A stretch of 52,722 nt of DNA from Fidelibacterota bacterium (GTDB lineage: Bacteria > Fidelibacterota > Marinisomatia > Marinisomatales > TCS55). The notes beneath the pieces were generated by a model. That model worked only from the letters and a program-made list of their open reading frames with translations. It made no database searches and was not told where the DNA came from. The stretch is from positions 1 through 52,722 of the forward strand of contig JACNLB010000079.1 of the NCBI GenBank assembly GCA_014381755.1, in the 5' to 3' direction. This document shows, in pieces, positions 8,107 to 40,081 of the stretch. Made by a program: the position numbers and the translations under genes. The first letter of the stretch is position 1, and every line of letters starts with the position of its first letter.

Positions 8107-9237
8107 TCAATATTTTAATGAATTTTTCAGTTGATTGAAATATTGAGTTTGTTCAACTATTACATTATATGAAAAAATAGAAATTCCTCTGAAGCGTGTA
8201 ATTTCAGAATAATATATTTTATCCACTGCTTCTATAGGATTTTGATTATATAATGCGATACCCATCATAATTTTATCACGATATTTCCTGGGTAGATTTT
8301 CATAAATAATATCAATATTGTTCGCAAAATCACGAAGATTTGGTGTGTAATTCATGGGTATAGCCCAATCCAAATAACCTGCCGCTAACCACATATCCCA
8401 TTCCTGGAAATATCGATTCTTCGCCAAAAGTAAATTTGGTTTTACTGCAGCAGATAGAATACAAACCGGACGTACATCCAATAACATTTGTTTTGTTTCT
8501 TTTACAAGATGTGTAATAGCAGCTCTTCGATAATTATCCCATTCAACATTATCATCATTTTCAAAAACACGTTTTTTATCATTATACCTGTTTTGGACAT
8601 AAAATGTTTTTGCTTCAACATTATTTCCATATTCCGCATCTTGAAAACGAATGTAATCCAGATGCAAACCATCAATTTCATATAACGCAGTCAATTCCCT
8701 GAACACGGCCAATAAGTGCTTTTGAACTTCCGGATGATGGGGAGCTAAAAAATATCCTTCTCCATTGCTGCCCTTATTCTGATTGGGAAATAATGTTGAT
8801 TCATTGCCATTAGTATCAATCCATTCAGGATGTCCATTATATACATGATGCAATGCGCGAGGTATTTTATTTGATGACCAAATAAGATATACATTCACCC
8901 AGGCATGGACAGCTAACCCTCCTGCATGTGCTTTTTCAATGACATACGCCAACGGATCAAAATCTGGATTTTGTAAAAATTCAGTTCTGGGAACTATTTG
9001 TGTTCGGTAATAAGCATCACCCCTACCCCGAACCTGAATCAGGAGATTGTTAAATCCGTTCATTTGAGCAAAATCTACCATTTCATCAATGGATTGCTTA
9101 CTTGTCATTGTATTGCGTACAACCCAAAGACATCTATCATCAAACGCATTTAATCCTGCAAAAATTGGACGTGTGCAGAAAAAAAGAAGGGCAACCAAAA
9201 CGGTTGCCCTCAAGCGATATTGCAATTGATTAAACAA
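8107..9237 (-). CDS. GHL10/DUF187-type glycoside-hydrolase-like exported protein
   Basis: The domain begins near LWVVRNTMTSKQSIDEMVDF and shows the DUF187 TIM-barrel pattern: NNLLIQVRGRGDAYY, HAGGLAVHAWVNVYLIW, GLHLDYIRFQDAEYG and DWAIPMNYTPN. These proteins act on, or are predicted to act on, extracellular polysaccharide or peptidoglycan. The open frame of 376 residues begins at TTG 9237 without a visible ribosome-binding site, and the start is uncertain. Residues ~8-27 (LRATVLVALLFFCTRPIFAG) look like a signal peptide, but their codons are the same bases as the rplQ terminator hairpin and T-tract. Either expression depends on readthrough or the gene starts elsewhere. It lies 6 bp after rplQ. 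Confidence 0.85.
   Translation of the reverse strand: MFNQLQYRLRATVLVALLFFCTRPIFAGLNAFDDRCLWVVRNTMTSKQSIDEMVDFAQMNGFNNLLIQVRGRGDAYYRTQIVPRTEFLQNPDFDPLAYVIEKAHAGGLAVHAWVNVYLIWSSNKIPRALHHVYNGHPEWIDTNGNESTLFPNQNKGSNGEGYFLAPHHPEVQKHLLAVFRELTALYEIDGLHLDYIRFQDAEYGNNVEAKTFYVQNRYNDKKRVFENDDNVEWDNYRRAAITHLVKETKQMLLDVRPVCILSAAVKPNLLLAKNRYFQEWDMWLAAGYLDWAIPMNYTPNLRDFANNIDIIYENLPRKYRDKIMMGIALYNQNPIEAVDKIYYSEITRFRGISIFSYNVIVEQTQYFNQLKNSLKY
9178..9212 (-). terminator. Rho-independent terminator of the ribosomal supercluster
   Basis: On the minus strand, GGGCAACC pairs perfectly with GGTTGCCC (9189-9209) around a five-base loop, with one more A-T pair at the base, followed by TTCTTTTTTT. It lies about 32 bp after the rplQ stop codon and inside the open frame of the next gene. 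Confidence 0.9.
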
Positions 9238-9243
9238 AATTAA

Positions 9244-9639
9244 TTATTCAGCGTCTGCATTTTCTTTATCTGATACAGCTATTCCTTCGAAGTCAACAAA
9301 TTCAATTAATGATAATGAAGCTGTATCATCTTTACGAAATCCTAACTTTATTATCCGCGTGTATCCTCCGGGGCGATCAGCAAAAGCGGGACCGATTTCA
9401 TCAAATAAAGTTTGAGTTGCATCTTTATGCAATTTTCTCAACACCATGCGCCGGGAAGTAAGATCACCCTTTTTCGCTTTCGAAATGAGTGGTTCAATAT
9501 ATTCACGCAGTGCTTTTGCCCGAGAATCTGTCGTCTTGATGCGTTTATGCTTAATCAAGTTTTCAGCCAAATTCATGAGCATTGCCCGCCTATGTGACGG
9601 ATTGACACCCAATTTACGATGTTTATTATTTTTTGCCAT
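9244..9639 (-). CDS. rplQ: 50S ribosomal protein bL17
   Basis: The 131-residue protein carries the bL17 pattern from the start: HRKLGVNPSHRRAMLMNLAE, then HKRIKTTDSRAKALREYIEPLI and RPGGYTRIIKLGFRKDDTA. bL17 lies near the peptide exit tunnel. The C-terminus has a short acidic tail (SDKENADAE) beyond the core. It is the last gene of the ribosomal supercluster, two bases after rpoA, and is followed by the terminator. Confidence 0.98.
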   Translation of the reverse strand: MAKNNKHRKLGVNPSHRRAMLMNLAENLIKHKRIKTTDSRAKALREYIEPLISKAKKGDLTSRRMVLRKLHKDATQTLFDEIGPAFADRPGGYTRIIKLGFRKDDTASLSLIEFVDFEGIAVSDKENADAE

Positions 9640-11267: not shown

Positions 11268-11663
11268 CTAAACACGTCTCTTTTTCGGAGGACGACATCC
11301 GTTATGAGGCAAGGGTGTTACGTCCTTAATTGAAAGAACTTCCAAACCGGCTACACCTAATGCACGAATAGCTGATTCACGACCGGATCCGGGACCTTTA
11401 ACACGCACATCAACTCGCATTAAACCTTTGGCTTTTGCTTCCAAAGCAACCTTATCTGCAGCCATAGTTGCAGCATAAGCTGTACTTTTTCGCGATCCTT
11501 TAAAACCAGATGTTCCGGCTGTTGACCATGCAACCACATTACCATAAATATCAGTTATAGTGATATGTGTATTATTAAACGTTGCTTTTATATGAGCAAC
11601 ACCATGGGGTTCAATGGATTTCTTTTTAGATTTTTTCTTTCCTGATGCTTTTTGTTTAGCCAA
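11268..11663 (-). CDS. rpsK: 30S ribosomal protein uS11
   Basis: The 131-residue protein shows the uS11 hallmarks: [46 protein letters not shown] and the basic end [11 protein letters not shown]. The N-terminal 15 residues are a lysine/serine-rich tail. It lies on the platform of the small subunit near the E site. It is 14 bp after rpsM, in the alpha-operon order. Confidence 0.98.
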
Positions 11664-23475: not shown

Positions 23476-24666
23476 CTACTCAACAATCTCCGTTACGACG
23501 CCGGCACCCACAGTCCGTCCGCCTTCACGAATAGCAAAACGCAGTTCCTTATCCATAGCAATTGATGTAATTAAGACCACATCCACTTCTATATTATCAC
23601 CCGGCATTACCATCTCTGTACCTTCAGGTAATGTCACGACTCCCGTTACATCTGTGGTCCTGAAGTAAAACTGAGGACGATATCCATTAAAAAACGGTGT
23701 ATGTCGTCCACCTTCTTCCTTCTTTAATACATATACATTCGCCTTGAACTTGGTGTGAGGTGTAATGGACCCCGGTATTGCTAGCACCATACCGCGTTTC
23801 AATTCTTCTTTATCAACTCCACGAAGTAATAAACCGGCATTATCGCCTGCCTGACCTTCATCCAGAAGCTTTCTAAACATCTCCACTCCTGTAACGACTG
23901 TCTTTTTATGCTCACCCATACCAATCATTTCTACTTCATCACCTACTTTGATTATTCCACGCTCGATTCGGCCCGTTCCAACTGTTCCGCGACCCGTAAT
24001 TGAAAAGACATCTTCCACAGGCATTAAAAAGGGCTTATCTACATCTCGCTCCGGTTCAGGGATAAAACTGTCACAGGCTTCCATTAACTCTACTATACAG
24101 GCATTGGCCACTTCATCACCGGGATTATTCAGTGCATTTAAGGCACTTCCCTTTATAATCGGTGTATCATCACCCGGAAACTCATACTCATTGAGCAAAT
24201 CTCTTAATTCCATCTCTACCAATTCCAGCAGCTCCGGATCATCCACCTGATCCGTCTTATTCATAAATACCAATACACTGGGCACATTTACCTGACGAGC
24301 CAGAAGAACATGTTCTCTGGTCTGAGGCATGGGACCATCCGCTGCACTAACAACCAAAATGGCGCCATCCATCTGGGCCGCTCCGGTTATCATGTTTTTA
24401 ATATAATCTGCGTGACCGGGACAATCTACGTGCGCATAGTGACGGTTCTCTGTCTCATACTCTACATGGGCTGTCTGAATTGTGATTCCGCGTTCACGCT
24501 CCTCCGGGGCATTATCGATACTGTCAAATGATCGTATCTCGGCCATTCCACGAGCTGACTGAACCAGCGTTACCGCTGCTGTCAACGTCGTCTTACCATG
24601 ATCCACGTGACCTATCGTCCCGATATTCACGTGAGGTTTTGTTCTCTCGAATTTTTGCTTAGACAT
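23476..24666 (-). CDS. tuf: Elongation factor Tu, copy 1 (str operon)
   Basis: EF-Tu brings aminoacyl-tRNA to the ribosome with GTP. The 396-residue protein has the P-loop GHVDHGKT (19-26), the switch [10 protein letters not shown], the guanine motif NKTD and the two C-terminal beta-barrel domains. It is identical in protein sequence to copy 2 at 38891-40081. The DNA matches throughout my line-by-line comparison, from just past the stop (23474) to four bases before the start (24670). Its codons use more G and C than the neighbouring genes. It lies between fusA and rpsJ, the classic str position. Confidence 0.98.
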
Positions 24667-38890: not shown

Positions 38891-40081
38891 CTACTCAACA
38901 ATCTCCGTTACGACGCCGGCACCCACAGTCCGTCCGCCTTCACGAATAGCAAAACGCAGTTCCTTATCCATAGCAATTGATGTAATTAAGACCACATCCA
39001 CTTCTATATTATCACCCGGCATTACCATCTCTGTACCTTCAGGTAATGTCACGACTCCCGTTACATCTGTGGTCCTGAAGTAAAACTGAGGACGATATCC
39101 ATTAAAAAACGGTGTATGTCGTCCACCTTCTTCCTTCTTTAATACATATACATTCGCCTTGAACTTGGTGTGAGGTGTAATGGACCCCGGTATTGCTAGC
39201 ACCATACCGCGTTTCAATTCTTCTTTATCAACTCCACGAAGTAATAAACCGGCATTATCGCCTGCCTGACCTTCATCCAGAAGCTTTCTAAACATCTCCA
39301 CTCCTGTAACGACTGTCTTTTTATGCTCACCCATACCAATCATTTCTACTTCATCACCTACTTTGATTATTCCACGCTCGATTCGGCCCGTTCCAACTGT
39401 TCCGCGACCCGTAATTGAAAAGACATCTTCCACAGGCATTAAAAAGGGCTTATCTACATCTCGCTCCGGTTCAGGGATAAAACTGTCACAGGCTTCCATT
39501 AACTCTACTATACAGGCATTGGCCACTTCATCACCGGGATTATTCAGTGCATTTAAGGCACTTCCCTTTATAATCGGTGTATCATCACCCGGAAACTCAT
39601 ACTCATTGAGCAAATCTCTTAATTCCATCTCTACCAATTCCAGCAGCTCCGGATCATCCACCTGATCCGTCTTATTCATAAATACCAATACACTGGGCAC
39701 ATTTACCTGACGAGCCAGAAGAACATGTTCTCTGGTCTGAGGCATGGGACCATCCGCTGCACTAACAACCAAAATGGCGCCATCCATCTGGGCCGCTCCG
39801 GTTATCATGTTTTTAATATAATCTGCGTGACCGGGACAATCTACGTGCGCATAGTGACGGTTCTCTGTCTCATACTCTACATGGGCTGTCTGAATTGTGA
39901 TTCCGCGTTCACGCTCCTCCGGGGCATTATCGATACTGTCAAATGATCGTATCTCGGCCATTCCACGAGCTGACTGAACCAGCGTTACCGCTGCTGTCAA
40001 CGTCGTCTTACCATGATCCACGTGACCTATCGTCCCGATATTCACGTGAGGTTTTGTTCTCTCGAATTTTTGCTTAGACAT
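38891..40081 (-). CDS. tuf: Elongation factor Tu, copy 2 (tRNA-tuf-secE operon)
   Basis: The 396-residue protein is identical to copy 1. DNA identity seems to run from 38889 to 40085, just beyond both ends of the gene, and stops sharply there; the upstream ribosome-binding regions differ (here GGAG before the ATG). This pattern is what gene conversion between two tuf copies leaves. The place after tRNA-Thr(GGT) corresponds to tufB of Escherichia coli. A reader comparing short fragments cannot tell the two copies apart, so assemblies should be checked. Confidence 0.98.

Follow-up and report, generated by a model that had tools for sequence, protein, structure and literature searches.

In the pyrBI attenuator of E. 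coli, an open reading frame extends as far as the terminator or across it, and termination can be suppressed by translation of this frame. The frdABCD and ampC genes of the same organism provide a second arrangement, in which the terminator of the upstream operon serves as the attenuator of a downstream envelope gene. That terminator is not known to be part of the signal-peptide codons of the downstream gene, unlike the hairpin at the junction of rplQ and a GHL10 gene that is the subject of this analysis. DigH (YddW) of E. coli is itself a GHL10 protein and cleaves the glycan strands of peptidoglycan.

The performance of terminators close to, or within, translated DNA has also been described in E. 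coli. According to the excerpted part of PMC4824070, a terminator comes close to its maximal efficiency once it lies more than ~30 nt past a stop codon, and translation costs only ~10% of the efficiency of one set 30 bp into an open reading frame that is being translated.

The rplQ-GHL10 junction

The window analysed here is a stretch of 52,722 nucleotides from a Fidelibacterota bacterium, in which rplQ, with its stop codon at 9246-9244, is the final gene of a cluster of ribosomal-protein genes and rpoA. On the minus strand this stop codon is followed by the TTG at 9237, a stem-loop and a T-tract (Table 1). Two tuf (EF-Tu) genes, at 23476-24666 and 38891-40081 on the same strand and identical across all 1191 nt, flank part of the rpl/rpo cluster.

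Table 1. Features at the rplQ-GHL10 junction of the window
Feature	Position	Strand	Basis
rplQ (ribosomal protein L17)	9244..9639	(-)	Open reading frame; Pfam Ribosomal_L17, E 1.3e-33
GHL10 glycosyl-hydrolase-like protein	8107..9237	(-)	Open reading frame; TTG start 9237-9235, 376 aa
Predicted signal peptide MFNQLQYRLR-ATVLVALLFFCTRPIFA	9157..9237	(-)	Sequence; cleavage after A27 is a by-eye guess
Terminator-like stem-loop GAGGGCAACCG-TTT-TGGTTGCCCTT	9211-9187	(-)	Sequence, folding energy, covariation
T-tract CTTTTTTTCT	9177..9186	(-)	Directly 3' of the stem-loop

The gene behind rplQ encodes a member of the GHL10 family (PF02638), matched over residues 45-331 with an E-value of 2.8e-34 and 119.1 bits against a gathering cut-off of 27.9. 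As the match at residue 45 begins at profile position 20, the domain needs a start well 5' of the first internal ATG. A profile search found one solved relative, Cwp19 (5oq2, E 1.5e-23), and no other, and a search of viral contigs found no GHL10 relatives.

The preliminary description had pointed to a perfect hairpin with a T-tract 3' of rplQ, and the core arms GGGCAACC and GGTTGCCC (9209-9202 with 9196-9189) do pair fully, within GHL10 codons. The folding energy is -17.2 kcal/mol, the mean over 103 loci of the lineage being -15.9 kcal/mol. Hairpin and T-tract together occupy codons 9-20 of the GHL10 protein, whose frame from the TTG translates as MFNQLQYRLRATVLVALLFFCTRPIFAG; stem, loop and T-tract encode residues 10-20, RATVLVALLFF, which form the core of the predicted signal peptide, and the T-tract with the end of the stem reads as Leu-Leu-Phe-Phe. 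An Rfam scan of the window returned tRNAs only, by which a known RNA family was rejected as the identity of the hairpin. By its sequence, the hairpin has the traits of an intrinsic terminator: a stable G+C-rich stem, an adjacent T-tract and compensatory changes among relatives.

Among the 71 loci with a single in-frame start upstream of the hairpin, that start lies 11-42 nt ahead of the stem (median 25), close behind the rplQ stop, and is TTG in 42, ATG in 16 and GTG in 13. The rplQ genes, by a heuristic choice of start, begin with ATG in 95 and GTG in 8 of 103 loci. Under the same kind of heuristic, a Shine-Dalgarno match of at least 4 nt precedes 24 of 100 GHL10 starts and 34 of 77 rplQ starts. 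The TTG of the window has no match of this length; those of rpsK, rpsM, rpsE, rpsC and rpoC have matches of 5-6 nt. These apparent TTG starts behind good Shine-Dalgarno sequences lie at 11663 (rpsK), 12055 (rpsM), 15640 (rpsE), 20147 (rpsC) and 31960 (rpoC), all on the minus strand. The idea that a weak TTG evolved against non-stop translation of terminated mRNAs is unsupported: loci without the hairpin use weak starts too, so that weak starts cannot be credited to the hairpin.

Occurrence and history in the phylum

The named relatives belong to Candidatus Neomarinimicrobiota/Marinimicrobia, a phylum for which Fidelibacterota is given as the valid name in the excerpted part of PMC11652737. The GHL10 protein was matched in 79 of 101 close genomes, and in all 77 order-level loci whose stretch includes rplQ (78 parsed) its gene lies directly behind rplQ on the same strand. 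Beyond these first 78, 40 class- and phylum-level loci were fetched among the matches listed, hand-chosen for spread over families, and the gene order was unchanged in them, L218 not being cleanly parsed; a further 25 rplQ loci were obtained from 30 genomes. The distance from the rplQ stop to the stem is 21-63 nt (median 41). In L109 and L117, rplQ is near GHL10 across gaps of 422 and 301 nt.

After L062 (contig ending before rplQ) and L218 (rplQ end not parsed) were dropped, a strict hairpin with T-tract between the rplQ stop and the GHL10 domain was found in 103 of 116 parsed loci. At least four T in the 10 nt adjoining the stem were required, and loops of up to 9 were allowed, a limit which misses the stems visible by eye in L188 and L189. 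These two, with their long loops, are among the 13 loci outside the 103; in L040 and L211 the T-tract is drawn into a longer stem, L209 has a stem without T, the T-tract of L194 is weak, and in seven (L070, L073, L074, L077 and L222-L224) the stem is absent. The T-tract is thus imperfect in some loci, being missing in L209, weak in L194 and poor in L064.

A chance origin of the hairpin was rejected by shuffles, by control stretches and by the covariation described below. Four of the 116 loci were left out for an N in the stretch. Of the remaining 112 rplQ-to-GHL10 stretches, that of the window included, 101 have the hairpin and T-tract; after dinucleotide shuffling of these stretches, 58 of 1120 do. 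In control stretches of equal length they occurred once in 112 inside rplQ and once in 111 inside the GHL10 domain. Nor is the hairpin a general trait of GHL10 signal peptides, as a hairpin with T precedes the domain in only one of 41 relatives from other phyla whose stretch lacks rplQ.

Either element can also be found alone. In two genomes of family f13 (L227 and L228), no GHL10 hit lies behind rplQ and the search of close genomes with the GHL10 protein gave no match, while a GGGCA..TGCCC stem with T-tract stands in intergenic DNA, where it would be a plain untranslated terminator. Conversely, GHL10 persists in 11 of 132 scored loci although the stem is missing, which means that the element is not indispensable; those inspected retain a hydrophobic N-terminus, and six hairpin-less genomes of genus g23 still encode a hydrophobic stretch at that place. 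Judged by these loci, each function survives where the other has been lost. Four genomes of f15 (L229-L232) have neither GHL10 nor hairpin behind rplQ. In this small-genome family rplQ is followed by a convergent open reading frame and then by one that resembles a sulfotransferase, a name guessed from the sequence.

On a tree of 137 rows (LG+G4, no bootstrap, several long branches, an outgroup that is not one clade), in which L188, L189, L040 and L211 were scored as having the hairpin and L209 and L194 were unscored, the hairpin label changes three times and the deep branches carry it. Most simply, the hairpin would be ancestral, with three losses. In L110, from another lineage, the GHL10 ATG comes immediately after a terminator, an arrangement which is a possible earlier state. 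A small Lys/Ala-rich open reading frame stands between rplQ and GHL10 in this locus.

Selection on RNA pairing and on the reading frame

Pairing was assessed in an alignment (A2) of 75 order-level hairpins, 73 of them distinct, from which L033 (containing N) and L073 (no real hairpin) were left out. In the ten-pair stem 95.9% of cells across the 75 hairpins are paired, against at most 66.2% for slid partners. Changes on both sides of a pair number 96 cells, against 29.4 in shuffles, and occur in eight of the ten pairs; shared ancestry is not removed from these counts, and the same sequences supplied the structure. The T-tract is conserved along with the stem. A different stem sequence occupies the same place in L016, L037 and L039, and also in loci of f30 and f31.

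Synonymous sites are nearly frozen in the hairpin and free outside it. Among pairs drawn from 77 loci (those lacking the hairpin included) that share a residue, the fraction with an identical codon is 0.84, 0.83, 0.96, 0.97, 0.78, 0.78 and 1.00 at the R, A, V, A, L, L and F of the hairpin and T-tract, and 0.18-0.34 at conserved columns of the domain (R, L, V, V, R, A). Codons of the loop and those flanking the motif are intermediate, at 0.26 to 0.73. The aligned Phe of the T-tract, present in 64 of the 77 rows, is always encoded by TTT. Third codon positions face third positions across the stem in 105 of 108 hairpins, owing to shared descent; in this register, silent changes can compensate each other.

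The protein read from the same letters is constrained as well. Across the hairpin, the GHL10 frame contains a stop in none of 103 loci, while the other two frames do in 47 and 14. With a mean hydropathy of 1.75 (0.52 and 0.09 for the others), it is the most hydrophobic frame in 98 of 103; the sequence 5' of the hairpin carries net positive charge in 96 of 100 loci in this frame and in 45 and 32 in the others. Some changes alter both partners of the stem together with the protein: AGG..CTT becomes AAG..TTT, replacing Arg and Leu by Lys and Phe jointly, in 16 of the 75 hairpins, and Ala-Ala becomes Val-Thr jointly in six.

It had been proposed in the preliminary description that one stretch appears to serve as both terminator and coding DNA; loss of the hydrophobic frame in relatives had been named as a refutation, and a comparison for compensatory changes preserving both constraints had been suggested. 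This reading is supported in part: the pairing of a terminator-like element and the frame it overlaps are both conserved, the hydrophobic frame is kept in relatives, as seen in its absence of stops and its hydropathy, and compensatory changes occur in the covariation and the paired Arg-Leu/Lys-Phe and Ala-Ala/Val-Thr swaps. The further idea of the preliminary description, that readthrough could tie the supply of an envelope enzyme to ribosomal transcription, belongs to the mechanism proposed below. These comparisons establish the overlap, its spread over the phylum and selection on RNA pairing, and by the same evidence the reading frame and its chemistry are under selection. Export of the GHL10 protein is presumed from its N-terminus.

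Proposed mechanism, rival explanations and known systems

The element is probably a leaky intrinsic terminator at the end of an operon, co-evolved with the signal-peptide codons of GHL10 and metering the expression of that gene. Hairpin and T-tract would form the terminator with which the ribosomal-protein cluster ends, behind rpoA and rplQ. Most RNA polymerases would stop at the T-tract, leaving rplQ mRNAs that end within GHL10 codons, and a minority would read through. Since the start codon lies upstream of the hairpin, any GHL10 mRNA must have read through it, so that only readthrough transcripts could encode the exported enzyme. GHL10 expression would thus stay a small and more or less constant share of ribosomal-operon transcription. 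Termination, partial readthrough, a dosage effect and any regulation are what we infer from this arrangement. Taken with the E. coli data on distance and translation (PMC4824070, in part), the 21-63 nt between stop codon and stem make a working terminator with a small leak the simplest reading.

The scarcity of such stems in the lineage argues against the terminator reading. In 400 kb of a genome of the same genus there are nine strong stems with T-tracts, and the one between rplQ and GHL10 alone falls within the first 120 nt of a same-strand open reading frame, as does one of two in the window. A relaxed scan of 353 gene ends in this genome (G001:C1 1-400000; L251-L270) found a hairpin with T within ~80 nt of 16 of them; the control counts were eight when these stretches were read on the reverse strand and one inside genes. 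Of 21 genomes, 20 have Rho and 18 have a tmRNA scoring over the cut-off. Termination in this lineage may be mostly Rho-dependent, and the scarcity of intrinsic-terminator-like stems together with Rho leaves a general use of such hairpins here unproven.

The main rival to a leaky terminator is translation-coupled antitermination of the pyrBI kind. Ribosomes reinitiating at the TTG after rplQ would prevent the hairpin from folding, and GHL10 would follow reinitiation or ribosome supply rather than a fixed leak. The spacing of the upstream start, at a median of 25 nt (11-42) before the stem and close behind the rplQ stop, is such that a translating ribosome would disrupt the stem; this arrangement is kept across the phylum, and a conserved frame, whose translation is inferred, spans the terminator-like hairpin as in pyrBI. 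On the other side stand the missing Shine-Dalgarno match of at least 4 nt at the window TTG and the E. coli result, in the available part of PMC4824070, that translation beginning 30 bp before a terminator cut termination by only ~10%. On balance we consider this coupling unlikely. The bolder form of the proposal, to which we give a similarly low probability, is a phylum-old attenuator within a signal peptide, in which the ribosome leaving the L17 gene may or may not reinitiate and carry the polymerase through, and ribosome availability itself would thereby meter a cell-wall hydrolase. If true, this would be a sensor consisting solely of a terminator that doubles as signal-peptide codons.

Terminator stems often double as protection of mRNA 3' ends, and the stem might chiefly protect or define the end of the rplQ mRNA, as a processing site or a barrier to exonucleases, and exert no meaningful control over GHL10. 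The hairpins behind rplQ in L227 and L228, where GHL10 is missing, fit such a role. A mere barrier would need no T-tract, however, and the T-tract is conserved with the stem; moreover, rplQ is kept without the hairpin in the 11 of 132 scored loci and the four f15 genomes. This explanation appears improbable, more so than coupling to translation. Least credible of all, and rejected on the counts of frame, charge and start codons, is an artefact in which the true start of the protein lies 3' of the hairpin, the overlap being due to an over-extended open frame. An in-frame ATG, GTG or TTG does occur between hairpin and domain in 52 of 103 loci, but none is present in the other 51, and a start ahead of the hairpin exists in 102 of 103; a conserved downstream start, which the preliminary description had named as a refutation, is thus not present. 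Furthermore, only the GHL10 register is open, hydrophobic and positively charged, and the six hairpin-less genomes of genus g23 encode the hydrophobic stretch all the same.

The locus is a natural case in which one stretch of DNA answers to two constraints, RNA pairing with a U-tract and the chemistry of an export signal, and can be traced over a phylum with losses of either. Because Phe and Leu are encoded by the U-tract (UUU, CUU) and third positions lie opposite third positions in a stem of this register, terminators and signal peptides fit each other unusually well, which suggests looking for such fusions elsewhere. If readthrough were confirmed, leaky termination would couple a cell-wall enzyme directly, and at a fixed dosage, to ribosomal-protein transcription. 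The cultured member of the phylum obtains peptidoglycan from other bacteria, as stated in the excerpted part of PMC11652737.

Intragenic terminators and attenuators are a known kind of element, and the signal-peptide version appears to be new. The literature searched, in which few subscription papers were covered, held no report of a terminator in signal-peptide codons; absence from print is not established by this. The pyrBI frame encodes a leader peptide, whereas the frame here follows a ribosomal-protein gene, encodes the functional enzyme itself and has no known effector. The rpfB-ksgA RNA switch of Mycobacterium tuberculosis is similar in that a premature-termination element ties a cell-wall-degrading enzyme to ribosome-related expression; it differs, on the part of PMC6009663 available, in lying in a 5' untranslated region, in being confined to some mycobacteria and in being riboswitch-like. 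Similar in geometry are tR2 placed in an open reading frame (PMC4824070) and the 3' ends internal to E. coli reading frames (PMC7815308), where, as far as the excerpted texts go, a hairpin and U-tract likewise fall no more than 100 nt into a frame that is translated and termination would leave an mRNA without a stop codon. In the same excerpts those cases are engineered or belong to a single species, whereas the element behind rplQ would be a natural, terminator-like one that has co-evolved with a signal peptide throughout a phylum.
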